From positions 682,001 through 746,000 of the forward strand of contig NZ_JACJPP010000011.1 in NCBI RefSeq assembly GCF_014696135.1: a stretch of 64,000 bases of DNA. The letters run 5' to 3'. Below are positions 6,366 through 58,360 of the stretch, in pieces (the stretch's first letter is position 1; each line of letters starts with the position of its first letter). The notes under the pieces were generated by a model. The model searched no databases. It had not been told where the DNA came from and saw only the letters and a list, made by a program, of their open reading frames with translations. A program made the translations under genes and the position numbers. The stretch is from Nodosilinea sp. FACHB-141 (GTDB lineage: Bacteria > Cyanobacteriota > Cyanobacteriia > Phormidesmidales > Phormidesmidaceae).

Positions 6366-7304
6366 ATGAAAAGACTATCCATAGGAACGATTTCAGCCCT
6401 CTTTCTAGCTGGGGCAGTTGCTCCTGCTGTCCTTGCCGATACCCACGGGACCTTGCAGTCTCAAACCCCCAGTCAGGGCCAAACTCCTGGGCAAATGCAA
6501 ACTCCTCGCCAGGGTCAAAATCCTGGACAGGCTCCCACCCAAGCGCCTGAGCGGGTACCTGGGCAAAGTCCAGAAGCTTACCCCAATGAAACTCCGGGTA
6601 ACCAAGTTCCTAGACAAACTCAAACCCCTCGCCAGGGCCAGAATCCTGGGCAGATGCAAACTCCTCGCCAGGGCCAAAATCCTGGACAAATGCAAACTCC
6701 TCGTCAGGGCCAAAATCCTGGACAGGCTCCTACCCAAGCGCCTGAGCGGGTACCTGGGCAAAGTCCAGAAGCTTACCCCAATGAAACTCCGGGCAACCAA
6801 GTCCCCAGACAGTCTCCGAACTCTGGGCAGGGCCAAAATCCTGGACAGATGCAAACTCCTCGTCAGGGCCAAAATCCTGGACAGGCTCCTACCCAAGCGC
6901 CTGAGCGAGTACCTGGGCAGAGTCCGGAAGCTTACCCCAACGAAACTCCGGGCAACCAAGTCCCCAGACAATCGCCGAACTCTGGGCAGATGCGGACTCC
7001 TGGGCAAACCTCTGCGCCCAGCGCTGAGTTTGACAGCATGGGCATGGGCATGGGCGCATCTCTCTCCAGCGATCTTGTGAGCCCTTTCCAGCTGGCTTAC
7101 ATGGCCGTTAGGGGCGAGCTAGACGCAGGCAGCGAAGAAGGCTACTCGGTTTACAAAGCGCGCCATGGCACTGCCGAAGGTCAAAACATCGTTGAAGCTG
7201 CGATCAACCAGGGCTACATCAGCAGTGACCTTATGGATGACCAGGGCTACATCAACAGCGTCAACCAAATCCTGAGAATGCAAGCTGAGACTTGGAGAGA
7301 CTAA
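6366..7304 (+). CDS. Secreted Pro/Gln-rich repeat protein
   Basis: 312 residues from ATG 6366, preceded by GAGG at about six bases; an upstream TTG at 6354 is less likely. The N-terminus (MKRLSIGTISALFLAGAV, cleavage after VLA) is a clear Sec signal peptide. Residues about 35-215 consist of repeats of two kinds: a ten-residue TPRQGQNPGQM/A unit, and a longer unit around APERVPGQSPEAYPNETPG present three times. The final ~90 residues are non-repetitive and folded-looking (VSPFQLAYMAVRGELDAG, INQGYISSDLMDDQGYINSV). I infer an exported protein with a flexible, proline-rich arm and a C-terminal domain. I do not recognise the family. The repeat unit is a multiple of three, so two other frames are also open; those are shadows. 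Confidence 0.8.
   Translation: MKRLSIGTISALFLAGAVAPAVLADTHGTLQSQTPSQGQTPGQMQTPRQGQNPGQAPTQAPERVPGQSPEAYPNETPGNQVPRQTQTPRQGQNPGQMQTPRQGQNPGQMQTPRQGQNPGQAPTQAPERVPGQSPEAYPNETPGNQVPRQSPNSGQGQNPGQMQTPRQGQNPGQAPTQAPERVPGQSPEAYPNETPGNQVPRQSPNSGQMRTPGQTSAPSAEFDSMGMGMGASLSSDLVSPFQLAYMAVRGELDAGSEEGYSVYKARHGTAEGQNIVEAAINQGYISSDLMDDQGYINSVNQILRMQAETWRD
6466..7008. repeat. In-frame tandem repeats of the secreted protein
   Basis: The DNA alternates short units (CTCCTCGCCAGGGCCAAAAT-like, about 30 bp) with three longer units carrying CTGAGCGGGTACCTGGGCA. Copies are nearly identical at the DNA level, which points to recent expansion or homogenisation by recombination or slippage. Confidence 0.8.
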
Positions 7305-10124: not shown

Positions 10125-10574
10125 ATGAAAACTTTGATTGTTGGTTTGGCCGCGATCATTTCTGCTGTCGGTGCTTCTGGTGCGCTGGCTCAGTCTAGTT
10201 CAGTAGACTGGGTTGAGGTGACGCAAAATGCTGTGGGCGATCGCTTCCTAGTAGAGCGTAACTCTATTCAATTAAGGGATGGAGCTGTTTGGTACTGGGA
10301 ACATCGCGACTTCCCTGAACCGAACAACGCCTTTGTCGGGGTTGAGCTGGAGCAACCTGTGCATAGTGTCATGTTGTATCGCTCTGCCGATTGTGCAGGC
10401 AGTGTTTCTCGGATTAGGCAAATCATTGCTCGTGACAAGGATGGGCAGGTAATTCAGCGCATTAACTATGGGGATGCTGGTCAGTTGACGCAACCTCAGG
10501 CAGGCAGTAGCGCAGCAGCCGTCTTGCGCTTTGTCTGTGACCAACCCCAGGCAGCACCACCTGCCTCATCATGA
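10125..10574 (+). CDS. Exported surface-adhesin-E-like protein
   Basis: 149 residues. MKTLIVGLAAIISAVGASGALAQ is a signal peptide. The mature part follows the pattern of the surface-adhesin protein E-like family: VDWVEVTQNAVGDRFLVER, then RDGAVWYWEHRDF, a YRSADC cysteine, QIIARDKDGQVI and a second cysteine in FVCDQP. The two cysteines could form a disulfide. Such proteins occur widely in cyanobacteria and proteobacteria as small periplasmic or surface proteins; the biochemical role is not established. The start is three bases after the stop of the TPR-like gene. Confidence 0.7.
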   Translation: MKTLIVGLAAIISAVGASGALAQSSSVDWVEVTQNAVGDRFLVERNSIQLRDGAVWYWEHRDFPEPNNAFVGVELEQPVHSVMLYRSADCAGSVSRIRQIIARDKDGQVIQRINYGDAGQLTQPQAGSSAAAVLRFVCDQPQAAPPASS

Positions 10575-10714
10575 GGGCGCTATAGTGCAGCCCAAGATGA
10601 AAGAACTTTGACTTAATAAATGCTCAAGTTCTTCATACACCTAGAGATTGTGCGATCGCAGATTCCAACAAACCTACATCTCGGATACCTAAGGTGCCCG
10701 CAGTGAGCACTCCC

Positions 10715-10861
10715 CGAGTGTTTTCGGGTCACGCGGCAAATACCGATATTGTGGTGGCCTTGGCCCACGCTTATCTGCACGCCCTCAACCGGCTGCACAC
10801 GGTGTTGCAGACCGGGCAAGCCGTCCATCTTCAGCGAGAAATGGTGACGGCTGCGCTGTAA
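10715..10861 (+). pseudogene. leuA 3'-end fragment
   Basis: The 147 bases align without gaps to the last 147 bases of leuA (9108-9254), ending at the same TAA. I count 21 differences (about 86% identity), of which about 13 are silent third- or first-position changes. The peptide still reads [15 protein letters not shown] and LHALNRLHTVLQTGQAV. Similarity continues past the stop (GGGAGCTG versus TGGAGCTG). No start or upstream leuA sequence is present, so this is a remnant. Confidence 0.85.
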
Positions 10862-10986
10862 AAGCCGCAGGAAAAATGGGAGCTGTTGTGAGAGGTTCCT
10901 AATGGCACTGTTTCAGCCTCCCACCCTCAATTTTGACAGGGCAGAGCGACGGTTATGAAGTCTACGACTAGGCTGCTCAAACGTCC

Positions 10987-11133
10987 CTAAGGTTTGGCTC
11001 TTTGAGAATCGGGACTGCGTAGTTTGGGTGTGATAACGTTCTCAGCCAGCGGTTGCAAGTAATCTTTGGGTCCCATCAGCCTCTCCCAACAATCTGCTGC
11101 ACTGGGATTGTTATGCCACAGCAACCGTCGTCT
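10987..11133 (-). pseudogene. Possible coding remnant, family unknown
   Basis: On the minus strand an open stretch of 49 codons encodes LLWHNNPSAADCWERLMG and then PKDYLQPLAENVITPKLRSP. The composition is protein-like rather than random, but it is bounded by stops, has no convincing start and I do not recognise it. It sits beside two clear gene remnants, so decay is likely. Confidence 0.3.
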
Positions 11134-11158
11134 CTAACTGCAACGTCCAATCTGCCAG

Positions 11159-11375
11159 TTAGTGATGAGCTTCCATATATGCTCGTAGCAATTGATTGAT
11201 CTATGTTTGATAGCCCCGCCCTTGAGACTTAAACCATTCCAATACATCGCTATCAATGCGGAGTGTCACTTGAGCCTTGGCTTTTGTAGCAGGTAAACCC
11301 GCCGCGCTACTGCCTTAGCAAACATGTCTGGTGTAATCTCTCGACAATCTGACGGGTCACTTCTTGATCGCTCAT
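11159..11375 (-). pseudogene. Decayed BrnA-family antitoxin
   Basis: From ATG 11375 the minus strand reads MSDQEVTRQIVE. One frameshift later it gives PDMFAKAVARR, and after a further shift ATKAKAQVTLRIDSDVLEWF, then KSQGRGYQT, a TAG (complement of 11201-11203) and INQLLRAYMEAHH. The RIDSDVLEWFKSQG.GYQTRIN pattern is the ribbon-helix-helix signature of BrnA antitoxins. Two frameshifts and an in-frame stop at the conserved Arg codon show the gene is dead. Confidence 0.75.
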
Positions 11376-11394
11376 CGCATCTAATCCTTGCCAA

Positions 11395-11545
11395 TCAGTT
11401 TAAGAGTTGCTCGAAATAGGTTCGTTGTTCATATTTTGGCGCTTTTCTTGTAGAAGTAATACGGGTGCAATCCTCACGTTCTGTATGAACAACGGCAACC
11501 ACTCGCCCTCGGCAAGCGAGCCACAAGAAAGAGGGGAGTGAGCCA
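11395..11545 (-). pseudogene. Truncated BrnT-family toxin
   Basis: The minus strand encodes GRVVAVVHTEREDCTRITS and then TRKAPKYEQRTYFEQLLN before TGA, the C-terminal half of a BrnT toxin (VVVYTER..RIISARKA). A frameshift lies just upstream, in CGSLAEG, and the N-terminal half is not detectable. The BrnA remnant follows immediately downstream, in the usual toxin-then-antitoxin order. Confidence 0.72.
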
Positions 11546-11663
11546 TTTCCACGCTAAATGCATAGTGCTAAGTCTATGGAAAATTAGCGAAGGATTGATA
11601 GAAAACGAGTCTCACAGTTGCGTAAAATGTTCCTAACCCAATGGATAGGTATTTATTCTCATT

Positions 11664-13364
11664 ATGATAGAGCAGTTCCCCTGGCTGACCGTGATCGTGC
11701 TATTGCCGTTGGTAGCCGCGTTATTCATTCCTTTGATACCTGATAAAAGCGGCAAGACAGTCCGCTGGTATGCCTTGGGGATTGGCACGGCTGATTTTGC
11801 GCTAATGTCTTACACCTTTTGGCGGCATTACGATGCGAGCCAGGCGACCTTCCAACTGGCGGAAAAGGTGGTTTGGTTACCGCAGTTGGGCTTGAGTTGG
11901 GCGCTATCGGTGGATGGTATTTCGGCTCCGCTAGTCCTGTTAGCGGGCTTTGTGACGACGCTGTCGATGTTTGCTGCCTGGCAGGTAAATCGGCGATCGC
12001 GCCTGTTTTATACATTGATGTTGATTCTGTATGCTGCCCAGTTGGGGGTATTTCTGGCCCAAGATCTGATTCTGTTCTTCATCATGTGGGAAGTGGAACT
12101 GGTGCCAGTTTATTTGCTGGTATGCATTTGGGGCGGGCAAAATCGGGACTATGCAGCGACGAAGTTCTTGATGTATACGGCCCTGGCTTCGATCTTCATT
12201 TTAGTGGCAGCTCTAGGAATGGGATTCTATGGCGATACGCTCACCTTTGATATGGCTGAACTAGGGAGAAAGCAGTTTCCTTTAGGACTGGAATTGTTTT
12301 TGTACGCTGGACTGCTAGTATCCTTTGGGGTCAAATTGGCAATTTTCCCCTTTCATACTTGGCTACCGGACACCCACGGCGAAGCTTCTTCTCCTGTATC
12401 CATGATTTTGGCAGGAGTATTACTGAAAATGGGGGGGTATGGGCTGATCCGGTTGAACTTGGAACTATTACCCCATGCCCATGTGTATTTTGCGCCGACG
12501 TTGGTGATTTTAGGGGTAGTCAACATTGTCTATGGGGCGCTAAACTCCTTTGCACAAACCAATATGAAGCGGCGGTTGGCCTATTCCTCAATTTCTCACA
12601 TGGGGTTTGTCCTGCTAGGGATTGCTTCCTACACTGATTTGGGTGTGAGTGGGGCGATGCTGCAAATGCTGTCCCACGGGCTGATTGCGTCGGTGTTATT
12701 TTTCTTGGCAGGCGTTACCTACGATCGCTCCCGCACGATGATGATGAATCAGTTGGGTGGGTTGGGGCAGGCCATGCCCACCGTGTTTGCTCTGTTCACC
12801 ATGGGGACACTGGCATCCTTAGCTTTGCCTGGAATGAGTGGGTTTGCCGGAGAGCTGGAGGTCTTGGTCGGCTTGGCCACATCGGACATCTATGGTCCGG
12901 CCTTTCGCTCGGTAGCCCTTTTTCTGGCAGCAGTAGGGTTGATTCTGACACCGATCTACCTGCTGTCGATGGTGCGGCAGGTGTTTCATGGGGCCAGTGC
13001 TGATCAAATGTGTGACCTGGTGCCTGCCTGTGATCTGGATGACCTAGATTTGAAGGCCCAGGGTAACCAAGAGGCAAACTGTTTTGGCACGGACTGTATC
13101 TTGCCAGAGGAGGCAGAGTTTAGGGATGCCAGTTCTCGGGAGATTTTTATTGCGGCTTGTTTTCTGGGGCTGATTATTGCGATCGGGTGTTATCCCAAAG
13201 TGGCGACCCAGATGTATGACGTAAAGTCGATGGCGGTTAACTCCCAGGTGCTGACGGCGTATCATGAGACCTATCCAGATACGCTGCAGCGCTTGGCGCA
13301 GGGGCGATGGAGTTCGGCGATCTCAGCCGCTCAATCTGCGGATGTCTTGGGTGTTGTCAAATAA
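11664..13364 (+). CDS. ndhD: NAD(P)H-quinone oxidoreductase subunit 4
   Basis: 566 residues and about 14 membrane segments: the antiporter-like proton-pumping subunit NdhD of the cyanobacterial NDH-1 complex in the thylakoid membrane. Conserved parts include [21 protein letters not shown] with the channel Glu, [20 protein letters not shown] with the lysine-channel region, and [20 protein letters not shown]. Between the last helices lies an acidic insertion with four cysteines (Cys450, Cys456, Cys473, Cys478). The length fits the NdhD1/NdhD2 group, involved in respiration and cyclic electron flow, rather than the CO2-uptake NdhD3/D4 forms, though I cannot make that assignment firm. No other ndh gene is near, as is common for ndhD2. 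The start at 11664 has no strong ribosome binding site. Confidence 0.95.
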
Positions 13365-13660: not shown

Positions 13661-14431
13661 TTAGTCGACTAAACTGATTTCGCCTGTATTCAGGTCATAG
13701 TAGGCGCCCACAATTTTGAGTTTACCTTCTTGTAGGGCTGAAGCAATTACAGATGAGTTTTGTAGTCGCTGTACTTGTAAGCTCACATTTGACTTGATTG
13801 CGTTTGTGAGGCGATCGCCCGATTTTCCCTCCGAGGCTTGAACGGCTGGTCGAATTGCAAACACCAGTGATTCAATGACACCTGGTAATTCTCCCCCTTC
13901 CAGAGCCGCTGCCACGGCACCACATCGTTCGTGTCCTAGAACCACCAGTAGGGGGGTTCCCAAGACACCAACCGCATACTCTTCACTAGCAATATCTTCA
14001 GTGATGGCAATATTACCAGCAACACGAACGACAAAGAGATCGCCAATTCCCTGATCAAAAACAATCTCTGGCACTACTCGTGAGTCTGCACAACTCAAAA
14101 TAGCAGCAAAGGGCGCTTGTCCTGACGCAACTTCAGCTAGACGGGCAGCATCTTGATTGGGGTTGAGCCGCTTGCTTTCAACAAATCGCTGGTTTCCTTC
14201 CATAAGTTTTGCCAGCGCCTGATCAGGAGTCAAAGCACCCTGGGAATGGGCACTTCCAGGATCGGCCTTAGCGGCTTGGGCTTGCTTAGTACGGGATGAC
14301 CGATGTTCAACAGCTTGGGCTAATGCGCCCGTTCCTAACCAGGCTGTTACCGAACCTGTGCCAACCAGCCCTGCACCAAATTGAAGAAGGTTTCTTCTCG
14401 AAAACCTTTGTTGATCCGAGGATTTTCTCAT
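13661..14431 (-). CDS. Tat-exported beta-class carbonic anhydrase
   Basis: 256 residues from ATG 14431; a TTG at 14467 would add 12 residues before the signal. The N-terminus carries a twin-arginine motif, SRRNLLQF, then a hydrophobic stretch ending in GALAQA, so the protein should leave the cytoplasm folded. Zinc ligands of a beta-carbonic anhydrase are all present (numbered on the longer 268-residue form): Cys126 and Asp128 in SCADSR, His179 and Cys182 in GHERCGAV. It interconverts CO2 and bicarbonate, here presumably in the periplasm or thylakoid lumen, like Synechocystis EcaB. The gene is convergent with ndhD. Enzyme class is firm; physiological role is inferred. Confidence 0.92.
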   Translation of the reverse strand: MRKSSDQQRFSRRNLLQFGAGLVGTGSVTAWLGTGALAQAVEHRSSRTKQAQAAKADPGSAHSQGALTPDQALAKLMEGNQRFVESKRLNPNQDAARLAEVASGQAPFAAILSCADSRVVPEIVFDQGIGDLFVVRVAGNIAITEDIASEEYAVGVLGTPLLVVLGHERCGAVAAALEGGELPGVIESLVFAIRPAVQASEGKSGDRLTNAIKSNVSLQVQRLQNSSVIASALQEGKLKIVGAYYDLNTGEISLVD

Positions 14432-14896
14432 GATTGTGTCTTGAACAACGAAAGCATTTTTGGACAAGCAAAAATGGGTTAAAGCCCACTCCTAAACTGA
14501 ATCTTCTATGTACAGGTGACACAAAAACTGCTGTTGAAGCAAATCTTTAAACTCAAGCGCTTACTCTGATGAGACAGGCGGCCAACTATGTATTAAACGC
14601 TAGGTATTGTATAGATAAGCCCCTAGCTTGGTGGCTTTATCTGTTACTTTTGATGTCTAACTCCCTGGTGGAGGAGTATTGTTTGTCAATTACGATGGAT
14701 ATTCATTCTGAATAGTGCTTATTTGGTAACTTCTGATCTTGCAACCTATAAAAGTTTGCATCGGTAAGTAAAGTGCTGTTACACGGTCAACGGAGAGCGA
14801 TCGCATCAACAACCCTTCAGTAATCGGTATCCGTAGGTTGAGATCTGAAGCCACCCTACCTTTCACCTATTCCGGCGACACAGCCACCAAGCAACA
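14432..14896. other. Intergenic, no gene seen
   Basis: About 465 bp between the carbonic anhydrase start and the end of the stressosome/kinase operon. It should contain the carbonic anhydrase promoter. I see no reading frame or clear hairpin. Confidence 0.5.
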
Positions 14897-16915
14897 TTAA
14901 CCCTCTTTCTGCACTAGCGTCCAAATCGTTTTCAGCAGTGTTTCTGGCTCAATTGGTTTAGTAATGTGCTGCTGAAATCCAGCTGCTAATACTTTTTGCT
15001 GGTTGCTTTCTCCAGCGTAGGCAGTGATGGCGATCGCCAAAATATCTCTGCTCTGAGCGGACGATTGTTCCCTGATATGGCGAATCAATCCGTAACCATC
15101 CATATCGGGCATCCCAATATCACTGATGAGCAGATCAAACTCTGCTTGCTGCAGATGACTTAACGCTTCATGGGCCGTCCCTACCTGGGTAACCGTTGCC
15201 CCCTGCTGTTCTAACAAAAAACTAACTAGCTCTCGTGAATCTCTTTCATCATCAACAAAAAGTACTCGCAATCCGTTGAAATGTAACTCTGAACGGTTGT
15301 GAGACAAAGATTGATTTGAGTCGAGTTTAGAGGCAGCAATAATGGGAAGTCTCACAATAAAGGTTGAGCCTTGCCCTTCTCCTAAACTCGCAGCTTGAAC
15401 GGTTCCGCCGTGTAGTTCAACCAGGTGGCTAACGATCGCCAACCCTAGCCCTAAGCCCCCAAAACTGCGAGTCGTTGTGCTGTCGGCTTGCCGAAAATAG
15501 TCAAAGACATAGGGTAAAAAGCTAGCGGTAATGCCTTTACCAGTGTCACTGACCGTGATTTGAGCATAGGTAACGGGGCGGTGGGGAGGTGTGACGTGTT
15601 CTTCAACGGCTTCAATTTGCTCTAACCGCACCTGCACGTTTCCACCCTGGGGCGTGAATTTAACGGCATTGGAGATTAAATTCCAAATGACCTGCTGTAG
15701 GCGACCAGAATCGCCTAGAACTTGCCCAACATTGGGTTCAAAGGTTGTCTCGATTTGAATGGATTTTGCTTCAGCCGCGAGTTGCACAGTCTCAAGGGCA
15801 GATTTAATTGTGAACGGTAAATCTACTGGAACTGTGTTTAAGCTCAGCTTGCCCTGAAGGATACGAGAAACATCAAGCAAGTCTTCGATTAGCTGAGCTT
15901 GTAATCTAGCGTTGCGCTCAATTGTTTCCAGCGCGTACTGCGTTTTTGCCGCATCTTGCTGTTTCGTTTGTAGTATTTTTGCCCAGCCGAGAATGGGGTT
16001 CAAGGGCGATCGCAACTCATGAGATAAGACCGCCAGAAATTCGTCCTTGATGCGATTGGCCTGCCGCAGTTGATCCGCTTGCTCACGAGTCGTTTCATAG
16101 AGTGCATCTAGGCGTAGATTGCGCTCTTGCAGAATAATTTCTGCCTGCTTGCGTTCATCCTCAATCTGCTTGCGATTTGTGATGTCTACCAAAGTCAGCA
16201 CGGCACCGGTGAAGGTGCCAAATTCATTTAGCACCGGGTCCATTGTTTTGGCAAACCAGCGTTTTTGACTTTGCAGTTCTAATATTTGACGCTGGTGTGT
16301 TTCTTTAGCGCGGTAAAAGCAGGTGCCGTCCCCTACTCCCAAGGTGTCATTCATCAACTCGTAGTGAATTTTCCCTAAAATATCTTCAGCCGGCTTACCC
16401 AAAAGCCGCATCACGGCTTGATTGCAGCGCAAAATTCCACCCTGCTGATCGAGCAGGTAAACACTGTCGTTAATAGCATCAAATGTAGTTTGCCATTCCC
16501 GCGCTGAAATTAGCGCTAACTCTTCTGCCTGTCGAATTCGGAAGAGCGATCGCACCGTCGCCAAGAGTTCAATCGGCTCAACCGGCTGGGCTAGATAACC
16601 ATCGGCACCGCTGTCTAATCCTTCTGCCTTATCTTGACTTTTAACAAAGCTGGCTGAGAGATGCAGCACCGGAATAAAGCGAGTTAGCGGGTCGGCTTTG
16701 ATCTGGCGACAGACTTCAAAGCCGTTTAGATCGGGCAATTTCACGTCTAGAATGATCAGCGCTGGTTGATGTAAGCCGATCGCCTCTAACCCTGCGAATC
16801 CCGTCGCCGCTTCTACGACGGCGAACCCTGCATTTTGCAAAATTCGCCTCACGATGTAACGATTGGCTTCGTTGTCGTCAATATGCAGAATGGTTTCGCT
16901 GGGCACAAACATCAC
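14897..16915 (-). CDS. Hybrid histidine kinase REC-PAS-HisKA-HATPase-REC
   Basis: 672 residues, no membrane segment. Order: receiver (about 7-125; HIDDNEANRY, phosphoacceptor Asp57 in ILDVKLPD), PAS (about 140-250; FDAINDSVYLLD), HisKA with His299 in LSHELRSPLNP, HATPase_c (N box NLISNAVKFTP, DTGKGI, GLGLGLAIVSHLV), and a second receiver at about 545-670 (FVDDERDSREL, Asp in LLISDIGMPD). Soluble kinases with a receiver at each end usually pass phosphate to further partners. It is the last gene of the stressosome operon, 6 bp after the preceding kinase, so it probably takes its signal from it. No DNA-binding output domain is present. Assignment by clear motifs. Confidence 0.93.
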   Translation of the reverse strand: MMFVPSETILHIDDNEANRYIVRRILQNAGFAVVEAATGFAGLEAIGLHQPALIILDVKLPDLNGFEVCRQIKADPLTRFIPVLHLSASFVKSQDKAEGLDSGADGYLAQPVEPIELLATVRSLFRIRQAEELALISAREWQTTFDAINDSVYLLDQQGGILRCNQAVMRLLGKPAEDILGKIHYELMNDTLGVGDGTCFYRAKETHQRQILELQSQKRWFAKTMDPVLNEFGTFTGAVLTLVDITNRKQIEDERKQAEIILQERNLRLDALYETTREQADQLRQANRIKDEFLAVLSHELRSPLNPILGWAKILQTKQQDAAKTQYALETIERNARLQAQLIEDLLDVSRILQGKLSLNTVPVDLPFTIKSALETVQLAAEAKSIQIETTFEPNVGQVLGDSGRLQQVIWNLISNAVKFTPQGGNVQVRLEQIEAVEEHVTPPHRPVTYAQITVSDTGKGITASFLPYVFDYFRQADSTTTRSFGGLGLGLAIVSHLVELHGGTVQAASLGEGQGSTFIVRLPIIAASKLDSNQSLSHNRSELHFNGLRVLFVDDERDSRELVSFLLEQQGATVTQVGTAHEALSHLQQAEFDLLISDIGMPDMDGYGLIRHIREQSSAQSRDILAIAITAYAGESNQQKVLAAGFQQHITKPIEPETLLKTIWTLVQKEG

Positions 16916-16921
16916 GCATCC

Positions 16922-19051
16922 TCAAGCATCTAAGACGAGTCCGGCTTTAGCGAGTGCTTCTCGAAGGTGAGAGGCTGCTTCTGCTTGAGATGTTTTCTCC
17001 TTAGATAGGATAGCGACACCTTGTTGGGCTAAACGGCTCCGGGTTTCTAAATCTAACTGGGTCGATGAGTGAATAACCACAGGGATGGACTGAGTAGCGG
17101 GGTTATGCCGAAGCTGCTCAAGCGCTTCAAAGCCACTCAGCTCGGGCATTTCAAGGTCAAGCAGAATGGCTGAGGGTTGTTCACTCTCTGCTACGGACAA
17201 TCCTTCCCGTCCATTGGCAGCCTCCAAAAACTGTAACGGCAAATTGGTCAACAACTGTTTAACCACATATCGATAAGCTGGGTCATCATCAATAAGTAAG
17301 AGTTTCTGAGCCTTGCCCTGGCCGACTAGCCGATTGAGCTTGGTGAGTAAGGGCAATTGATCTACAGGCTTAATCAAGAATCCATCAGCTCCTAGGGCAG
17401 TGGCCTGCTTTTCGTTATCTACGACCGTAATCACCAACACGGGAATGTTGCGAGTCGCCTCATCGCTTTTAAGCTCTCGCAGGAATGTCCAGCCGTTCTG
17501 CCCTTCTAGCAAGATGTCTAGCACGATCGCGGCTGGCTGAAGCTGCTGTAGGGCCTGTCTGGCTTGGGCCAAGGTGCGGGTAGCGATTAGCTGATATCTA
17601 GACGCTTGTAGGTGTTTCTCGTAGATAAATAGCGTCTCAATATGATCTTCGATCGCCAGAACGGGCAGGCGAGCTGGGTTTAGGGAAGTGATTGGTCGTA
17701 GTGAGTCCGGTAGCTCTGTCACTTTAGGGTAGACGATCGGAATGCAGACTGAGAAGGTAGACCCTTGACCCAGTTCACTTTGAACGGAAACGTTGCCCCC
17801 CATGAGCTCGGCTAGCTTGGAGGATATCGGCAGTCCTAGCCCTGTTCCTTTTACCTGCCTTTGCAGCTCAGACTCAATTTGCACAAAATCCTCAAAGATG
17901 CGCTCCTGGTCGTCCGGTGAAATGCCGATGCCGGTATCAGACACCGAGAGCTGAATCATCTGACCGGCTTGCTCAGCGGTGACTCGCACCTCTCCCTGCT
18001 TCGTAAATTTAAGCGCGTTTGAGATAAAGTTTCTGAGGATTTGAGCAATTTTTCCCTCGTCGCTATAGAGCGAGGGCAGACCATCGGGTTCATCAAACAC
18101 GAGCGACACAGAGGAACCCTGAACCAGCAGCGGACGCAGCATGCCCCGCAGGGTGGCAAACAGGTCACTCACTTCAAAGACACTGGGATTCACCTCGGTT
18201 TTGCCGGCTTCTACCTTGGCCAAGTCCAGGAGATCGTTGACGAGCTCTGACAACCCATCGGCCGCCTTTTGAATAAACGTCACTTGCTTTTCTTGCTCTA
18301 GGGACAGCTCTCCATCCATCCGAGTCAGCAGCATGCGAGAGAGGGACAAAATTGAGTTGAGCGGCGTGCGAAACTCGTGGCTCATGTTAGAAAGAAAGCG
18401 AGTTTTGAGCTCGTTTGCCTGTTGCAGAGAGCTGGCTTTCTCGTCTAATTCGGCGTATAGGGCAATCACGCCTCGATTGGTGTCTTCTAACTCGCGGTTG
18501 AGGTAGGTGAGCTCTTCCTCTCGCTTGCGAAGTTCGGCCATCGCCCGCAGCAGTTCCTGGTTTTGCCGCTGAATTTCGTCGTAGGGGTTTTGGGGCGATC
18601 GCCCCACGACGGCCTCCCGAATTTGCTGCAATTCTAAATCTGTGAAAATGGGCGATCGCTTGGGTAGGGCTTTGCTAATTTTCACGGTGGTTCCCTGCTC
18701 GGTCGATTCGATCTCGAAGGACTCCATCAGCCGGCGCGTGCCAGTAATTCCTAACCCCATGCCGGTAGAAGACTGGTAGCGTCCCTCTAAAATATCGTTC
18801 AGATGCGGAATGCCCCCGCCCTGATCTTGCACCTGAATGAGGAAGGTTTGGGGGCTTTCCTCCAGGTCAAATGTCACCGTGCCACCCTGGGCGTACTGAA
18901 ACGCATTGCGGGCAATTTCTGAAACCGCCGTGGCTAGCCGCGCCTGATCTTGCCCGTCGAACCCCAGCTGTTCTGCTAGCTCGCGGGTGCGCTGCCGCGC
19001 CTGCACCACATCCTGTTCGTAGTGGATTTCTAGGGTGAAAAGGGTTGTCAT
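16922..19051 (-). CDS. RsbT-like domain fused to hybrid histidine kinase with two receivers
   Basis: 709 residues. Residues 1-130 are a complete RsbT/RsbW-type GHKL ATPase module: TAVSEIARNAFQYAQGG (N box), VQDQGGGIP and GMGLGITGTRRLM. A coiled coil (about 165-220) leads to HisKA with His225 in NMSHEFRTPLNS, then a second, kinase-type HATPase (NFISNALKFTK, DTGIGI, GTGLGLPIS) and two receivers (AIVLDILLEGQNG; LLIDDDPAYRY with ILLDLEMPEL). The ATPase fold thus occurs twice with different jobs. Its start overlaps the SpoIIE gene by 4 bp. Inference: the N-terminal module is captured or released by RsbS/RsbR, directly coupling the stressosome to a phosphorelay. Domain calls are firm; the coupling is not shown. 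Confidence 0.92.
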   Translation of the reverse strand: MTTLFTLEIHYEQDVVQARQRTRELAEQLGFDGQDQARLATAVSEIARNAFQYAQGGTVTFDLEESPQTFLIQVQDQGGGIPHLNDILEGRYQSSTGMGLGITGTRRLMESFEIESTEQGTTVKISKALPKRSPIFTDLELQQIREAVVGRSPQNPYDEIQRQNQELLRAMAELRKREEELTYLNRELEDTNRGVIALYAELDEKASSLQQANELKTRFLSNMSHEFRTPLNSILSLSRMLLTRMDGELSLEQEKQVTFIQKAADGLSELVNDLLDLAKVEAGKTEVNPSVFEVSDLFATLRGMLRPLLVQGSSVSLVFDEPDGLPSLYSDEGKIAQILRNFISNALKFTKQGEVRVTAEQAGQMIQLSVSDTGIGISPDDQERIFEDFVQIESELQRQVKGTGLGLPISSKLAELMGGNVSVQSELGQGSTFSVCIPIVYPKVTELPDSLRPITSLNPARLPVLAIEDHIETLFIYEKHLQASRYQLIATRTLAQARQALQQLQPAAIVLDILLEGQNGWTFLRELKSDEATRNIPVLVITVVDNEKQATALGADGFLIKPVDQLPLLTKLNRLVGQGKAQKLLLIDDDPAYRYVVKQLLTNLPLQFLEAANGREGLSVAESEQPSAILLDLEMPELSGFEALEQLRHNPATQSIPVVIHSSTQLDLETRSRLAQQGVAILSKEKTSQAEAASHLREALAKAGLVLDA

Positions 19052-20055
19052 GCTCCCGTTCCTTTCGCCACCAGCATGGTCACATCATCCCGCTCACGAT
19101 GAAAATCACGGTGTAACACACCGGCGATTAAGCTGGGATGCTTTTGACTTAGGCCGGGGTAGCGATCGAGATTCCACTGGGTACTGATGCCATCGGAGTG
19201 CATAGTCAGCAGCCCGTTGAGATACCAGGGGTAGGTAAACTCCTTGATCTTACGAACCTCATGGCCCACGGTGCCGTTGTAAGACATCATGTTGTGGTGT
19301 TCGGTGGCGGAAGAAATGCTGGCCGCAATATTACCAATGCCCGCAAAGCAAACGGTCTGCTGCTCAAAGTTAATTTCGGCGATCGCCAGAGCTGCCCCTC
19401 TAGTGCTGCGTAACGCCGCGTGGGCCGCTTCGACAATGCGCTGGGGCGACTGGTGATGACAATCGTGAAACACGCGGATAGCGGCGGTCGCCGCGCTGGC
19501 CGCCGCAGGACCATGGCCTAAACCATCGACCACCAGAAACAGGCTGCGGCGCTCATCCCCTACCCAAGCCGAGGCATCCCCTGAAACCTCCTCGCCCAGC
19601 TTGGGTAAAGCGACCACACCAACTTCAATGATTTTGGGTGACGAATGGGGAGACGTTTTTGCCCAGATATGAGCGAGCAGTGCCGTTCCCTTATTGGGCT
19701 GCGAATAAATTTCAAAGAAGTCAGAGAGGCGGCGAATTGCGCCTAGCCCATTGCCCGATGTTCCGGCGGTAGAAAAGCCATCTTGCAGGCATTCTTCCAC
19801 ATCTACCATGCCAGAACCCTGGTCTAGCCCCAAAACTTCAATGCCGATGATGTCATCTTGGGCGATCGCCCTCAGCACAATCACTCCGCGACCTGCGTGC
19901 CGGATGAGGTTGTTCGCCACCTCTGTTACCAAAAGGCCAACCTTGCCCCGTTCGGTCTCTTCAAAGCCAAGCCGAGTGGCTAATGCTAGAGAGGCTCGCC
20001 GTGCTTCCCCAGTTTGACTCTGCTCGGTGATGGCGATCGCCGTAGATTCATTCAA
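19048..20055 (-). CDS. RsbT-like ATPase fused to SpoIIE-family phosphatase (RsbX-like)
   Basis: 335 residues. The first ~135 form another RsbT-like module (LLVTEVANNLIRHAGRG, LGLDQGSGM, GNGLGAIRRL). Residues about 145-335 are a PP2C-type SpoIIE/RsbX phosphatase: EEVSGDASAWVGDERRSLF, VVDGLGHGPAAASAA, ALAIAEINFEQQTVCFAGIGN and a final HRERDDVTMLVAKG, giving the metal-binding Asp residues. RsbX dephosphorylates RsbS and RsbR to reset the stressosome, so this is the expected reset enzyme. The RsbT-like N-terminus is a common cyanobacterial and proteobacterial variant. It begins 14 bp after rsbT and overlaps the next gene by 4 bp. Confidence 0.92.
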   Translation of the reverse strand: MNESTAIAITEQSQTGEARRASLALATRLGFEETERGKVGLLVTEVANNLIRHAGRGVIVLRAIAQDDIIGIEVLGLDQGSGMVDVEECLQDGFSTAGTSGNGLGAIRRLSDFFEIYSQPNKGTALLAHIWAKTSPHSSPKIIEVGVVALPKLGEEVSGDASAWVGDERRSLFLVVDGLGHGPAAASAATAAIRVFHDCHHQSPQRIVEAAHAALRSTRGAALAIAEINFEQQTVCFAGIGNIAASISSATEHHNMMSYNGTVGHEVRKIKEFTYPWYLNGLLTMHSDGISTQWNLDRYPGLSQKHPSLIAGVLHRDFHRERDDVTMLVAKGTGA

Positions 20056-20069
20056 TTGATAACCTCGAA

Positions 20070-20468
20070 TTACTTCCAGCGTACGACGATTATTCGCGTT
20101 CCTTCTCCTACCACAGACTCAATTTTAAACTCGTTGGCTAGCCGTTTTGCACCCCCTAACCCCATCCCCAGCCCGCCCCCTGAGGTGAAGCCATCCTTGA
20201 GCGCCATTTCAATATCTGGAATGCCCGGCCCCTGATCTTCAAACGTGAGCTTGAGACCGCGCCGCCCGCCGTCCTGAAGCGTTTCTAACTGAACGGTTCC
20301 CCCTCCTCCATAATCTAGGGTGTTGCGGGCGAGCTCGCTGGCAGCAGTGACAATTTTGGTTTGGTCTACTAAACCAAAGCCAAGCTCAATGGCAAACTGG
20401 CGCACGGCTTGTCGAACCAAAACCACATCCGCAGAAGATTGAATTTTTATCTCCTCAATCTTCTGCAT
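20070..20468 (-). CDS. rsbT: Stressosome serine/threonine kinase RsbT
   Basis: 132 residues from ATG 20468, giving a 14-bp overlap with rsbS; the longer frame from 20507 would run further into it. RsbT phosphorylates the STAS proteins RsbS and RsbR, then leaves the stressosome to activate its target. GHKL motifs: TAASELARNTLDYGGGG, FEDQGPGIPD and GLGMGLGGAKRLA. It is the canonical size, and it is the first of three consecutive RsbT-type modules in this operon. There is no RsbU homologue in the window, so the partner is probably one of the fused proteins downstream. Confidence 0.92.
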   Translation of the reverse strand: MQKIEEIKIQSSADVVLVRQAVRQFAIELGFGLVDQTKIVTAASELARNTLDYGGGGTVQLETLQDGGRRGLKLTFEDQGPGIPDIEMALKDGFTSGGGLGMGLGGAKRLANEFKIESVVGEGTRIIVVRWK

Positions 20469-20871
20469 CGTCTTCCATGTCCCATTCCGTAGAAATGAAT
20501 CGATCATTCGCGGATTTAGCGACCGTCGCCTGCAACAGTGTCATCCCCTTTTCCACATTCAATGCTGTGCGAATGCCGGTGAGGGAAAGCCCTAGCTCCA
20601 CCAAGGTAATCGCGACGGCAGGCTGCATGCCAACAACCACCGTTTCAGCATCCATGACCTGTGACATTTTGGCAATGTTGCCTAAAATTCTACCGATGAA
20701 AGAATCGACAATATCTAGCGCAGAAATGTCAATTAAAACCCCGCTGGCGTTGGTTTGACTAATACGATTGGTCAGGTCATCTTGTAGTGTCATTGCGAGG
20801 CGATCGTGCATGTCGACCTGAATGGTGACGAGCAGAAATTCGCCCATTTGAAGGATGGGAATCCGTTCCAT
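20455..20871 (-). CDS. rsbS: Stressosome STAS scaffold/antagonist RsbS
   Basis: 138 residues, a single STAS domain. The loop ALDIVDSFIGRILG carries Ser57, equivalent to the Ser that RsbT phosphorylates in Bacillus RsbS, and GMQPAVAITLVELGL carries the second conserved site (Thr89). The N-terminus MERIPILQMGEFLLV is typical. RsbS binds and silences RsbT in the stressosome core until phosphorylated. The C-terminal tail (NDRFISTEWDMEDDAED) is acidic and longer than usual. It starts 13 bp after rsbR and overlaps rsbT. Confidence 0.93.
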   Translation of the reverse strand: MERIPILQMGEFLLVTIQVDMHDRLAMTLQDDLTNRISQTNASGVLIDISALDIVDSFIGRILGNIAKMSQVMDAETVVVGMQPAVAITLVELGLSLTGIRTALNVEKGMTLLQATVAKSANDRFISTEWDMEDDAED

Positions 20872-20884
20872 TCTTTCCTCTAAC

Positions 20885-21736
20885 CTACTTGCGGGTGATG
20901 GTGGTTCCCTTTCGCCTTAATGCCATGAGAAAGGCATCAGCTAAGGTTGCTTTTGTGGTTACATCAGCTAAATCGATGCCGAGATATACGATCGTTTGGG
21001 CAATTTGAGGTCGAATGCCGCTAATAATGCAGTCGGCGCCCATGAGGCGAGCGGCGGTAACCGTCTTCAGCAAATGTTGAGCGGTCAGCGTATCGACGGT
21101 CGGCACCCCAGTGATGTCAATAATGGCAACTTCTGAGCCGGTTTCGACAATCTTCTGCAATAGCGACTCCATCACGACCTGAGTACGGGCGCTGTCGAGG
21201 GTACCAATGATCGGCAAGGCCAAAATGCCTTCCCAAAGTTTGACTACTGGCGTAGACAGTTCCATCATTTCTTCCTGCTGCCGCAAAATCACCTCTTCTC
21301 GCGATTTTTGATAGGCTTCTACCACCAGAAGTCCGAGGCGATCGAGCAGGTTAGTGGCTTGCCAAATCTCTTCGCCTAGCTCAGCGGAGTTTTGCAGCTG
21401 CTTCCGCAGACAATCAAAGAGCGGTCGTTTGAATGAAAAGATAAAGGTAGCCGTTTCAGAGGGCGTGAAGCCTTTGTGGGAGCGCGATCGCGAGATGCTA
21501 GTCAGCAGCTCCCGCACCTCTCGCCATTCGAGCGCCTGAATATTGCTCAAGTTACCGGATTGAGCCGCGACGCGGAGCAACTTGAGAAATTCTCGGCACT
21601 CTACCTGTAGCTCTGCTTCTTTAATCAACCCTTTGCGGGTGTTTGTAGCAATTAGTTCCTGATTCCACTCCGACAGCAGTTCTGCCTCATGAGTTTTCAG
21701 TATCTCCGGTATCTTACTGGTGTGAGTCATTTCCAT
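20885..21736 (-). CDS. rsbR: Stressosome sensor RsbR-type protein
   Basis: 283 residues. The N-terminal half (1-150) is helical, with LLSEWNQELI and a run of helices like the RsbR N-terminal sensory domain family, and no haem-ligand or flavin motif that I can point to. The C-terminal STAS domain (about 165-280) contains DITGVPTVDTLTAQHLL with Thr216 and SGIRPQIAQTIVYLGIDL with Thr248, matching the two phosphorylation sites of Bacillus RsbR. AAGGA stands about nine bases before ATG 21736. It is the first gene of the operon and, by family knowledge, the signal-sensing arm of the stressosome. The signal is unknown. Confidence 0.92.
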   Translation of the reverse strand: MEMTHTSKIPEILKTHEAELLSEWNQELIATNTRKGLIKEAELQVECREFLKLLRVAAQSGNLSNIQALEWREVRELLTSISRSRSHKGFTPSETATFIFSFKRPLFDCLRKQLQNSAELGEEIWQATNLLDRLGLLVVEAYQKSREEVILRQQEEMMELSTPVVKLWEGILALPIIGTLDSARTQVVMESLLQKIVETGSEVAIIDITGVPTVDTLTAQHLLKTVTAARLMGADCIISGIRPQIAQTIVYLGIDLADVTTKATLADAFLMALRRKGTTITRK

Positions 21737-22732: not shown

Positions 22733-25700
22733 ATGATTGTAGATGAACCGACTCAGGCGCACATCGAGGAAGATGTTTTTGTCTTTCCCGCCTCGTTTGC
22801 CCAGCAGCGTTTGTGGTTTATTGACCAGCTACTTCCGGGAGATGCTCTCTATACGAGTCCTCTGGTGTTTCGGCTTAGCGGTCATTTAAAGCGATCGCAC
22901 CTCCAGCACAGTATGCAGGCGATCGCGCAGCGGCACGAAATTTTGCGCACCTCATTTGATGTCGTTGATGGTCAGTTAATGCAGGTCGTCGCCGCTCAGG
23001 TGGATGTGCCACTGCCGTTAATAGATCTGCGATCGCACCCCGCCAACCAGCGCGAAGCCATAGCGTTACAAGACATTTGGGAAACTCTTCAACACCCATT
23101 TCACCTCAATCAACGGCCACTTTTTCGGGTGCAACTGTGGCAATTGCAAGATGACGAACATCTAATGCTAATTGCGCTACATCACATCATTTTTGATGAA
23201 TGGTCGAGCGGTGTTTTGATTCGAGAACTGGGTGAGGGATATGCTGCTTCGGTCGAAAACAAATTCGTCGCACTACCCGAATTGCCAATTCAATATGCGG
23301 ATTTTGCTCACTGGCAGCGGGAATGGTTGCAGGGTGATGTGTTGAATACTCAGTTGAGCTATTGGAAACAGCAGTTAAAGGATATCCCAGTTCTGCAGTT
23401 GCCGGGTGCGTTGTCGCCCGCATTAGGGCAACCCTTATCCCAAGAACATCAGGGCGCAAGTCAATTGCTAGAACTGCCTCAGCGATTATTGGAGGCGTTA
23501 GAAAACCTGAGCCAACAGGCGGAGGTGACGCTGTTTATGACCCTATTAGCAGCATTTCAAACCCTGCTGCACCGCTACACCGGACAAACCGATTTAGCGA
23601 TCGGCACTCCCATTGCCAATCGGCACCAGAGTGAATTGGAAGGGCTGATTGGCTTTTTTGTAAATAGTTTGGTTCTACGAACTAGCGTAGAGGGCGATCC
23701 GACGTTTTTGGAATTGTTAGAGCGAGTACGAGAAGTTACCCTAGCCGCCTACGATCACCAAGATTTGCCGTTTGAAAAACTGGTCGAGGAACTGCAACCT
23801 GTTCGCAACCTCGGTCAAAATCCCCTGTTTCAAGTGGTGTTTGCTCTGCAAAACACACCCATGACGCAGCTAGAACTGCCGGGGCTAATTCTCAGTCCAG
23901 TAGATTTGGGAATCAAGACATCCCGCTTCGATCTGGAATTTTACCTTTGGACCTGTGGCGACAACTTTAGAAACTTGTGGGGTAAGGGTTGGCAAAACTC
24001 AGACGGGTTGCGGGGGATGGTGATTTACAACACTGAGCTGTTTGAGGCAAGCGCGATCGCATCCCTTCTCGAGCACTTTCAAACGTTGCTAGAAGGAATT
24101 GTTGCCAACCCAAATACGCCTCTTTCTGCCCTGCCATTACTAACTACTGAAGACCAACAAGCATTGCTCCGCCGTTGGAGCAGCAATCAATCCAAATATC
24201 CTAGCAATGAGTGCATTCATCATCTGTTTGAAGCGCAGGTGAGGGAACGACCCAATGCGATCGCCCTGCAGTTTGGCAACCAACAATTCACCTATCAGCA
24301 GTTGAATCAGGGCAGCAACCAACTGGCGCGGTACTTGCAACGATTGGGCATTGGTTCGGAAATGCCCGTCGGTATCTGCTTGGAACGGGGCATAGGGGCG
24401 ATCGCTGCCATGTTGGCAATTCTCAAAGCGGGGGGAGTTTACGTACCTCTCGACCCCAGCTATCCGGCAGAACGGCTGCGCTTTATGGTGGAGGATGCGG
24501 GCATTACTGTCATTCTCTCGGAAGCAAACTGGGTAGACGAATTGCAAACGGCGACCACCAAGGTGGTTTGCTTGGAGCAATCGTGGGACGCGATCGCCCA
24601 GGAATCAGACCAGAATCTATCCACTTCCTGTACCGCCGATCAGCCCGCCTACGTCATCTACACCTCTGGCTCTACAGGAACCCCAAAAGGCGTTGTGGTG
24701 CCCCATCGAGCGGTAAATCGGTTGGTGTGCAATACCGATTATGTGCAGATTACAGGTGACGATCGCGTGGCGCAGGTGGCCAATCTTGCCTTTGACGCCG
24801 CCACCTTCGAAGTGTGGGGTGCCTTGTTAAACGGCGCTCACCTGATTGGCATTGAGCGAGAAATCACGCTGTCTCCCGCTGATTTTGCTGCTAACTTACA
24901 GCAGCAAAATATTAGCATTCTGTTTCTCACCACTGCTCTGTTGAACCAAACCGTTAGTCAGATTCCCGATGCCTTTCGATCGCTCAAGTATTTGCTTTTT
25001 GGCGGTGAGACAGTGAATGTCGATCGGGTGCGATCGCTAGTGCAGCAAGGCAAGCCCCAACACTTGCTGCACGTTTATGGTCCCACAGAAAACACCACCT
25101 TTTCCACCTGGTATGAGATCCAGGAGATTTCAGAAACTGCTACCACCATCCCCATTGGCAAAGCGATTGCCAATACTCAGGTTTATGTGCTGGATGCCCA
25201 TCAAAACCCTGTTCCTGCTGGGGTAGTTGGTGAGATATACTTAGGCGCCGATGGATTGGCAAACGAATATTTGAACCATCCAGAGTTGACCGATGAAAAG
25301 TTTGTTTGCTCAAAGCTATCAAACTTAAATCCAGCTTGTAACGAGCACCAGAATTTAATCCTATATAGAACAGGCGATCGCGCTCTTTATCACGCCGACG
25401 GCAATCTAGAATTTTTAGGTCGTGTAGACAATCAGGTCAAAATTCGCGGGTTTCGAGTCGAGCTAAGCGAGATTGAGCAAGCGATCGCACAACATCCATC
25501 GGTACAATCTGTCGTTGTCGTTGTACGGGAGATCGACCAAGATCGACAGTTGATTGCATACATTGTGCCCAGTACAGGGGAAGCCCCAACCGAACGAGAA
25601 CTACGATCGCTGCTAAAAAAACGGCTCCCTGCCTACATGATTCCGGCGGCATTTGTTGTGCTGGACTCGCTTCCCTTAACCGCCAACGGTAAAGTAGACC

Positions 25701-26062
25701 AAAAAGCATTACCCCCACCAACGCTGCATCGGGCAGCATTCAGCGCAACGACGGCTCCGACAACGTCTTTAGAGACGACTCTAGTAGAGTTTTGGATGCA
25801 GCTATTGGGACAACAACACGTGGGCATTCACGACAACTTTTTTGAGCTGGGAGGACATTCTTTGTTGGCCACTCAGTTCGTTTCACGGGTACGCGATCGC
25901 TTACACGTCGAGTTGCCTCTGCGCAGCATCTTTGAAACCCCCACCATTGCTGAACTAGCACAACAAATCACCGCCATTCAGGCAACGCTTCAACCCGAAA
26001 CCGCTTCAACCAGCGATCAAAGCGGAGCCAATTCTCAACGACGTGAGGAAATAGATCTATGA
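22733..26062 (+). CDS. NRPS module 1: C-A-PCP, predicted Ile/Val
   Basis: 1109 residues. Condensation domain (about 15-460): SFAQQRLWFIDQL and HHIIFDEWS, where Glu replaces the usual Gly of HHxxxDG. Adenylation domain (about 490-1000): YTSGSTGTPKG, YGPTEN, YRTGDRALY, NGKVDQK. Aligning by eye to GrsA gives the pocket residues D-A-F-F-L-G-V-T-F-K, a code I associate with isoleucine/valine-type domains. Carrier domain: DNFFELGGHS with the phosphopantetheine Ser1043. No epimerase or tailoring domain. It begins with a C domain but has no upstream carrier, so this is either a starter C domain that takes an acyl group or one fed in trans. The acidic tail (SQRREEIDL) may dock with the TubC domain of the next protein. 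The stop overlaps the next start (ATGA). Confidence 0.93.
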   Translation: MIVDEPTQAHIEEDVFVFPASFAQQRLWFIDQLLPGDALYTSPLVFRLSGHLKRSHLQHSMQAIAQRHEILRTSFDVVDGQLMQVVAAQVDVPLPLIDLRSHPANQREAIALQDIWETLQHPFHLNQRPLFRVQLWQLQDDEHLMLIALHHIIFDEWSSGVLIRELGEGYAASVENKFVALPELPIQYADFAHWQREWLQGDVLNTQLSYWKQQLKDIPVLQLPGALSPALGQPLSQEHQGASQLLELPQRLLEALENLSQQAEVTLFMTLLAAFQTLLHRYTGQTDLAIGTPIANRHQSELEGLIGFFVNSLVLRTSVEGDPTFLELLERVREVTLAAYDHQDLPFEKLVEELQPVRNLGQNPLFQVVFALQNTPMTQLELPGLILSPVDLGIKTSRFDLEFYLWTCGDNFRNLWGKGWQNSDGLRGMVIYNTELFEASAIASLLEHFQTLLEGIVANPNTPLSALPLLTTEDQQALLRRWSSNQSKYPSNECIHHLFEAQVRERPNAIALQFGNQQFTYQQLNQGSNQLARYLQRLGIGSEMPVGICLERGIGAIAAMLAILKAGGVYVPLDPSYPAERLRFMVEDAGITVILSEANWVDELQTATTKVVCLEQSWDAIAQESDQNLSTSCTADQPAYVIYTSGSTGTPKGVVVPHRAVNRLVCNTDYVQITGDDRVAQVANLAFDAATFEVWGALLNGAHLIGIEREITLSPADFAANLQQQNISILFLTTALLNQTVSQIPDAFRSLKYLLFGGETVNVDRVRSLVQQGKPQHLLHVYGPTENTTFSTWYEIQEISETATTIPIGKAIANTQVYVLDAHQNPVPAGVVGEIYLGADGLANEYLNHPELTDEKFVCSKLSNLNPACNEHQNLILYRTGDRALYHADGNLEFLGRVDNQVKIRGFRVELSEIEQAIAQHPSVQSVVVVVREIDQDRQLIAYIVPSTGEAPTERELRSLLKKRLPAYMIPAAFVVLDSLPLTANGKVDQKALPPPTLHRAAFSATTAPTTSLETTLVEFWMQLLGQQHVGIHDNFFELGGHSLLATQFVSRVRDRLHVELPLRSIFETPTIAELAQQITAIQATLQPETASTSDQSGANSQRREEIDL

Positions 26063-58164: not shown

Positions 58165-58360
58165 GGGCTGTCGTAACTCACCAGTCATAGAACAGGGTTG
58201 GCCCGAGAGCAGCGCCGATCGGTAGGGATGATCGGGCAGGGGTGTAGTGCAGTATAACCTCAGGTCAGGACCCAAGACAGTATCCCCGAGGCACGATCTT
58301 GGCCTCAATAGGAGAAAAAAACCAGCCAGAATGACCTCTGTGGCCGCTCTCTGGGGCTGA

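Follow-up and report, generated by a model that had tools for sequence, protein, structure and literature searches.

A cyanobacterial stressosome operon with predicted RsbT modules on both its output histidine kinase and its reset phosphatase

Stressosome loci in which two-component proteins directly follow the stressosome genes have been described for Vibrio vulnificus (rsbRSTX-D1-D2) and related Gram-negative bacteria, and the sections of PMC10014275 consulted cite Pane-Farre 2005 and 2017 for two-component outputs beside rsbRST as well as for cyanobacterial rsbRST. In the parts of Heinz 2022 (PMC9237108) available to us, eleven types of downstream architecture are distinguished, phosphorelays are named as output, some outputs bear RsbU_N (the domain by which RsbU receives RsbT, according to these parts and those of PMC12143880), attempts to show an interaction of Vibrio RsbT with output kinase D1 gave no positive result, and no RsbT module is described on the outputs. 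Here, we analyzed a six-gene stressosome operon on the minus strand (positions 14897-21736) of a 64,000-nucleotide stretch of Nodosilinea sp. FACHB-141 (contig NZ_JACJPP010000011.1, positions 682,001-746,000; the whole stretch is called the window), which belongs to a cyanobacterial genome of 5.9 Mb; the closest named loci are in Leptolyngbya, Nodosilinea, and Phormidium records. The operon resembles the Vibrio-type loci in the placement of its two-component proteins. As described in the excerpts consulted, however, those loci have a single-domain RsbX, a globin RsbR, and output kinases with RsbU_N or no recognised input domain, whereas the output kinase found here begins with a predicted RsbT-like module.

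Six co-directional open reading frames (ORFs) follow one another in the order R-S-T-TX-TK-RPK, where R, S, and T stand for rsbR, rsbS, and rsbT, TX for an RsbT-PP2C fusion, TK for a hybrid kinase of the architecture RsbT-HisKA-HATPase-REC-REC, and RPK for REC-PAS-HK-REC (REC, receiver; HK, histidine kinase). The junctions measure +13 bp (R-S), -14 bp (S-T), +14 bp (T-TX), -4 bp (TX-TK), and +6 bp (TK-RPK). An earlier note on this DNA had reported this gene order with these gaps and overlaps, together with two hybrid kinases holding four receivers in total, and both descriptions were borne out, as all six ORFs lie where the note had placed them and Pfam finds every domain, including two Response_reg matches each in TK and RPK. 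Transcription of the six genes as one unit is plausible. Scans of the locus returned five promoter-like hits, all on the plus strand and below the chance mean of 6.8, and 9 terminator-like hits compared with 8.8 by chance.

TK (709 amino acids [aa]; 16922..19051, on the minus strand like every operon feature given below) was annotated from its ORF, Pfam matches, and alignment. Its residues 1-135 (18647..19051) form a predicted RsbT-like module, assigned by Pfam (HATPase_c_2, 6.6e-19) and by tree. The module is followed by a long helix (residues 156-215; 18407..18586) that continues into the HisKA helix in an AlphaFold2 model, by HisKA with H225 and HATPase_c (residues 216-438; 17738..18406; Pfam, alignment), and by two receiver domains with D512 and D632 (16952..17674; Pfam, alignment). 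The tested GHKL catalytic residues of the module are kept in 33/33 close rows, except for one G2-box glycine (30/33), and the HisKA histidine is kept in all 33 rows. In the model of residues 1-450 (mean predicted local distance difference test [pLDDT] 78.4, predicted template modelling score 0.48), which is a single chain and silent on dimers and partners, one continuous helix spans residues 156-243 into HisKA, so that a shift of the module could be transmitted straight to HisKA. A fold search with this model gave histidine-kinase structures only among the 50 matches listed, and the identity of the N-terminal module as RsbT is a prediction from its sequence.

A second predicted RsbT-like module opens TX (335 aa; 19048..20055; Pfam, alignment), where residues 1-135 (19651..20055; HATPase_c_2, 1.3e-11; also RsbT match and tree) precede an RsbX-like PP2C/SpoIIE phosphatase domain (residues 145-331; 19063..19623; Pfam SpoIIE, 4.7e-9). 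Tested GHKL residues are kept in 32 close rows of TX and the PP2C aspartates in 33/33; with its phosphatase fused to an RsbT module, TX is not the single-domain PP2C protein that defines RsbX. When RsbT was used as a query against its own genome (E of 0.001 or better), the only matches besides itself were its paralogues in TK (39% identity) and TX (31%).

The first three genes are predicted to be a stressosome module, with RsbR as sensor, RsbS as scaffold, and RsbT as switch kinase. The rsbR gene (20885..21736; Pfam, PDB sequence match, alignment, Foldseek) encodes an RsbRD_N sensor domain (2.6e-28) and a STAS domain (7.9e-15) with phospho-threonine positions T179 and T216. Among solved RsbRs its best match is that of Vibrio (1.5e-35, residues 124-281), with Listeria-type entries matching over residues 12-274, and its AlphaFold2 model (mean pLDDT 81.3) retrieved the Listeria stressosome 7b0u as best Foldseek match at 5.7e-13 with a poor superposition (template modelling score 0.47, root-mean-square deviation 10.1). 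The rsbS gene (20455..20871) encodes a single STAS domain (1.2e-9) with phosphoserine position S57, placed by alignment, and residues 3-115 match solved B. subtilis RsbS at 3e-32. Directly behind it stands an intact rsbT (20070..20468; HATPase_c, 5e-12; also sequence matches and alignment), a stand-alone GHKL serine kinase of 132 aa, for which we took the start at 20468 shared with the 132-aa ORFs of L035, L038, and L039 (L and G numbers are our handles for loci and genomes); the longest ORF begins at 20507. Both RsbR threonines, the RsbS serine, and the tested GHKL active-site residues of RsbT are invariant in 31/31 aligned rows. We also considered two other RsbRD_N genes as further stressosome sensors and rejected them, since they encode RsbRD_N-histidine kinases without STAS and are not RsbR paralogues. 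This direct fusion of RsbRD_N to histidine kinases in the same genome (L002 571-1812, L003 742-1860) is recorded here as a separate observation.

Relatives were collected by searching public genome contigs with the TK N-terminal module, which retrieves close relatives only, and 33 loci were obtained, 32 of them cyanobacterial and 1 from an Acidobacteriota metagenome-assembled genome (MAG; L066). The six genes occur in the same order and on the same strand in 29 of the 33, and given this conservation the arrangement is not due to chance. These 29 include L040, in which RPK (10140-11854) stops after 491 of 672 residues with unrelated sequence beyond. The others are L037 and L049, which begin inside the operon, and L047, which ends inside it, all at contig ends, and L066, where rsbR and the 5' part of rsbS (5035-6600) are inverted so that rsbS is cut, probably by misassembly. 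Among 96 relatives, for which counts were read from strong matches (that of G089 in two pieces), orthologues were found in the genome itself, in 8/25 others of the genus, 0/32 others of the family, and 3/38 others of the class. Matches at 1e-10 or better occur in 15/386 genomes of the phylum, and RsbT as query finds 16 at 1e-8 or better; all 13 class genomes with such an RsbT match have TK, and outside the class RsbT matches come from three genomes, of which G130 and G133 are without TK and G127 falls outside this reading. The distribution of the operon is patchy. Five genomes of one genus (L136, L137, L141-L143) have R-S-T-TX-TK with a TK that ends after HATPase and no RPK in the stretch read, L137 showing a 63-aa receiver-like remnant behind TK, and this identifies R-S-T-TX-TK as the core and the receivers and RPK as additions. 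One receiver is present on TK in G076 (L150) and in G089 (L149), where an RPK-like gene lies on the opposite strand.

What stands at the start of the output protein differs among stressosome loci. Outside the class, G133 (L147, L148) has the order R-S-T(-T')-X-HK, where X has one domain only; its kinases begin with RsbU_N (6.8e-17, 4.8e-15) and have no RsbT module by Pfam. The kinase of G130 (L146) is encoded upstream, and its RsbU_N match of 0.01 falls below the cut-off. A single-domain X is found at six loci (L146, L147, L148, L166, L169, and L170), and an RsbT module is found on none of the five outputs that could be read, L170 ending at its record end, as L163 also does. An output kinase with an N-terminal RsbT module was identified in the cyanobacterial class, the Acidobacteriota MAG, Sphingomonas (L162), Deinococcus radiodurans MP1 and Deinococcus sp. 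KNUC1210 (L155, L174), and Paraburkholderia (L160, split over two ORFs), with a decayed module at the kinase start in Caballeronia (L157) and the actinomycete Embleya (L161). The module is fused to differing outputs in the same operon slot, namely HisKA kinases in cyanobacteria, Deinococcus, Sphingomonas, Paraburkholderia, and the Acidobacteriota MAG, HisKA_2 kinases in Salipiger and Phaeobacter (L165, L171), and weakly a SpoIIE phosphatase in Streptomyces Mg1 (L173), where a decayed module reaches 31-40 bits with local profiles and has no Pfam match. RsbU_N was absent from 15/15 RsbT-module output kinases scanned with Pfam (the window, L066, L136, L137, L140, L149, L150, L155, L157, L160, L161, L162, L165, L171, and L174), and in L157 and L161 the same scan did not see the RsbT module either. 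The TK module thus occupies the place that RsbU_N has in some other stressosome-linked kinases, which would alter the signal hand-over. We regard this as the strongest point, and the earlier note does not mention it.

We placed the modules in a tree of 135 columns and 90 rows, drawn from 199 module hits (some of them one module scanned twice) with many near-identical loci and L168 omitted. T, TX, and TK modules separate in this tree, in which the long rows RsbW, L173, and L160 are unsurely placed. A branch supported at 99/88 sets apart the 29 TX rows together with RsbW and a single unfused gene; kinship of RsbW with the TX modules was rejected, its branch length of 2.86 being read as long-branch attraction. 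The unfused gene comes from L148, where two rsbT genes lie side by side; it is the second of the pair, immediately precedes a single-domain rsbX, and may represent the fusion partner still apart. The TK modules form one group in one change among the T rows (72/38, weak). These placements suggest a series from an RsbU_N kinase through a second free RsbT to a fused RsbT. The omitted L168, a plasmid record labelled Stenotrophomonas, has nearly the gene order of the Lysinibacillus sigB region L167 and is possibly mislabelled or contaminated.

The reading we prefer, with moderate confidence, is that the output kinase is itself a client of the stressosome and would dock on it directly through its RsbT module. 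The stress signal would then probably reach the kinase by this docking, bypassing the messenger and sigma factor of the familiar cascade. In the resting state, RsbT, TX, and TK would sit with their RsbT modules on unphosphorylated STAS surfaces of RsbS and RsbR, and docking would hold TK inactive. Stress sensed at RsbRD_N of RsbR would lead RsbT to phosphorylate RsbS (at S57) and RsbR and so release the clients; freed TK would dimerise through its long helix and autophosphorylate at H225, and then pass the signal on to RPK, its own receivers, and/or regulators located elsewhere. TX would return to the complex by its own RsbT module, and its PP2C domain would strip the phosphates and reset the complex. 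Docking, inhibition while docked, and all steps downstream of TK are what we infer in this scheme. In its favour we count the joint presence of RsbT and TK in all 13 class genomes, the kept gene order, the paralogy of the RsbT modules within the genome, the exchange of RsbU_N for RsbT at the kinase start, the unfused second rsbT of L148, the variety of outputs bearing the module, and the continuous helix of the TK model. In the sections of PMC9237128 consulted, RsbT was docked on RsbS and RsbR by the geometry of SpoIIAB-SpoIIAA and RsbW-RsbV, which makes a shared STAS surface reasonable.

An alignment of 24 TK, 29 TX, and 36 T modules was used to look for traces of docking. The arginine that aligns with Arg20 of SpoIIAB, which we take to be a contact with the STAS partner, is present in 24/24 TK, 29/29 TX, and 34/36 T modules. 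In the modules of L157, L161, and L173, the Asn, the G1 residues, and part of G2 are lost and the first helices are kept, which favours docking over catalysis; judged by these residues, the decayed modules would hardly be kinases. We hold it to be an even bet that these features reflect a second wiring rule, by which the switch-kinase fold was welded to effectors and RsbT no longer leaves as a messenger in search of an RsbU_N receptor. Two RsbT duplications would then have given three clients competing for one STAS surface, namely the kinase, the reset phosphatase, and an interchangeable output (a kinase of the HisKA or HisKA_2 type or, possibly, a phosphatase of the SpoIIE type), with the module decayed to a pure docking tag in some lineages. 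The rule would extend over cyanobacteria, Deinococcus, the Acidobacteriota MAG, Alpha- and Betaproteobacteria, and, in decayed form, actinomycetes.

Several observations weigh against direct docking as the general explanation. The arginine is also found in RsbW and in the 34/36 RsbT rows and is therefore a general mark of STAS binding, not one specific to RsbS. The Asn and G1 Asp are intact in 21/24 TK modules and the catalytic Glu in 24/24, so that a kinase role is equally allowed in the 21 intact modules. The three decayed modules lie outside Pfam recognition and rest on local profiles (57, 31, and 40 bits), and the evidence for RsbU_N in the output slot comes from G133, one genome with a listed contamination of 7%. 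The Xanthomonas locus and two Variovorax loci (L156, L158, L172) have TX and a kinase without an RsbT module, with a short stretch only before HisKA, so that the module is not essential everywhere. At the Streptomyces locus L159, TX is accompanied by a GAF-SpoIIE phosphatase that lacks the module; the locus L164 consists of R-S-T only. A single origin of the TK modules has weak support in the tree.

A Bacillus-like hand-over, in which freed RsbT binds the RsbT-like module of TK as a mixed dimer and switches the kinase on as it would through RsbU_N, seems doubtful to us, even though a stand-alone RsbT is present in all 29 complete loci and in further class loci. SpoIIAB and RsbW, which have the same fold as RsbT, form dimers, and the RsbU_N on the G133 kinases indicates that a protein in this operon slot can listen to RsbT. 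In TK, however, RsbU_N is missing and is replaced by RsbT itself, not by a receptor, and besides RsbU_N the known RsbT-bound fold is STAS.

The statement of the earlier note that no RsbU or sigma-B gene is present holds for the operon, which also has no RsbV or RsbW. Across the genome, no RsbU_N match reaches the cut-off; of four SpoIIE matches, three were scanned and one is TX, and RsbU_N was found in none. A candidate for a classical RsbU was rejected, its weak RsbU_N match (0.001) being the KaiA C-terminal domain (L095 889-1773); this weak match is possibly a hint of a common helical fold. Two sigma factors elsewhere in the genome reach 188.6 and 177.4 bits against the SigBFG model, short of its cut-off of 234.35. 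Together with HATPase_c_2 matches in short frames (145-159 aa), a REC-SpoIIE phosphatase, and the Embleya locus, where the gene after TK encodes such a phosphatase, they leave room for a SigF-like sigma factor elsewhere as the final target, reached via a distant partner switch with a REC-SpoIIE phosphatase as relay. We consider this unlikely, as no RsbU_N stands over the cut-off and there is no physical linkage in this genome; it would be a branch below TK and compatible with docking of the kinase.

It is quite improbable, in our judgement, that the TK module is an active serine kinase on RsbS, RsbR, or another STAS protein while the histidine kinase half runs separately, the two kinases reporting mutually. 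The residues kept in close rows (33/33, the one G2 glycine 30/33) and the Asn and G1 Asp in 21/24 of the wide set would suit such an enzyme, and yet three lineages have lost their ATP-site residues and retained the fusion. That the stressosome and the two kinases belong to different pathways, possibly sharing a transcript, is very improbable: separate promoters would find space in 10/33 relatives, where TX and TK lie 43-1127 bp apart (counting from the longest ORF start), but a kinase fused to an RsbT paralogue recurs in cyanobacteria, Deinococcus, Acidobacteriota, Alpha- and Betaproteobacteria, and Embleya (there decayed), and the genes constantly occur together within the class. In four Nostoc/Calothrix relatives the gaps (TX-TK in L059, L060, and L065; T-TX in L043) reach 470-1127 bp and are mostly repeat-rich; the intergenic gaps inspected held repeats, genes being sought there only via ORF lists.

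The earlier note had proposed a phosphorelay with the two hybrid kinases and their receivers as output. TK stands as the natural output by its operon conservation and its RsbT fusion, whereas the receivers proved accessory to the core, and the phosphorelay design is not supported: the operon has no HPt domain by Pfam and no DNA-binding regulator, and in the five genomes described above TK is receiver-less and the locus lacks a second kinase. Genome-wide, all 8 HPt matches lie in frames of 697 aa or more and none is a stand-alone HPt, although a divergent HPt could escape; a four-step relay is thus unsupported.

RPK (672 aa; 14897..16915; ORF, Pfam, alignment) contains two Response_reg domains, PAS, HisKA, and HATPase_c. 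Its HisKA histidine is kept in 32/32 rows, and the receiver Asp of both TK and RPK is present in every ungapped row, both proteins being hybrid histidine kinases. The N-terminal receiver of RPK (16541..16903; alignment) has Asp57 and, at the switch-lysine position, Gln110, a glutamine in 32/32 rows; across 21 rows from the window and 20 loci of several phyla, a set restricted to receivers that score above 90 bits with the RPK profile, this position is Q, H, E, or D and never K. Without the switch lysine, the receiver may not answer like an ordinary one. The sixth gene usually starts with a receiver, as REC-HK in Deinococcus, REC-SpoIIE phosphatase in Embleya, and REC-PAS-HK(-REC) in Xanthomonas, Variovorax, and the Acidobacteriota MAG. 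The effector varies and the N-terminal receiver stays, which suggests that TK signals to this receiver.

Around the operon, two genes for non-ribosomal peptide synthetases (NRPS) diverge from rsbR (window 22733-31890), with condensation, adenylation, and carrier domains and, in the second, also methyltransferase and thioesterase domains. Conserved neighbours were considered as a functional clue and rejected, since NRPS genes flank the operon in 3/33 loci by ORF clustering (L034, L035, L038); Nostoc loci have other neighbours, and several loci are too short for their flanks to be judged. Downstream of the operon and on the same strand lies a gene for a carbonic anhydrase family protein (window 13661-14467) with what we take to be a twin-Arg-like N-terminus, and a cyanophycin synthetase-like protein is encoded at window 55474-58308.

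With the RsbT fold and the kinase in one chain, the way in which stressosomes without sigma-B hand over their signal can be tested directly with purified proteins, including those of Nostoc and Deinococcus radiodurans. The six-gene unit is conserved in many Nostoc relatives, and in the portions of the literature consulted we found no report on its physiology. Nor did the portions searched, which do not include Pane-Farre 2005 and 2017, describe an RsbT module on a stressosome output.

The operon has in common with the sigma-B stressosome of B. subtilis and Listeria a PP2C phosphatase and RsbR, RsbS, and RsbT, whose phosphorylation and active sites are conserved. Here, however, the phosphatase bears an RsbT module, RsbU, RsbV, RsbW, and sigma-B are absent from the operon, and a histidine kinase serves as output, with an RsbT module in the place of RsbU_N. 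In the RsbK-RsbY pathway of B. cereus, a hybrid kinase feeds a REC-PP2C phosphatase, as in the Embleya variant. To our knowledge, that pathway has no RsbRST and no RsbT module, and HmpUVW of Nostoc has no RsbR-RsbS stressosome and no histidine kinase fusion. The HmpUVW partner switch is alike in its cyanobacterial logic of STAS protein, GHKL kinase, and PP2C phosphatase, as described in the sections of PMC8256260 consulted. The RsbU_N-histidine kinases and the RsbU_N-GAF-GGDEF protein of Moorella (PMC12143880, in the parts consulted) likewise connect a stressosome output to its effector through a long coiled coil, but their input is the receptor of RsbT and not RsbT. Stressosome loci with two-component outputs are thus already known, and what differs here is the wiring, in which copies of the switch kinase would sit on both the output kinase and the reset phosphatase.

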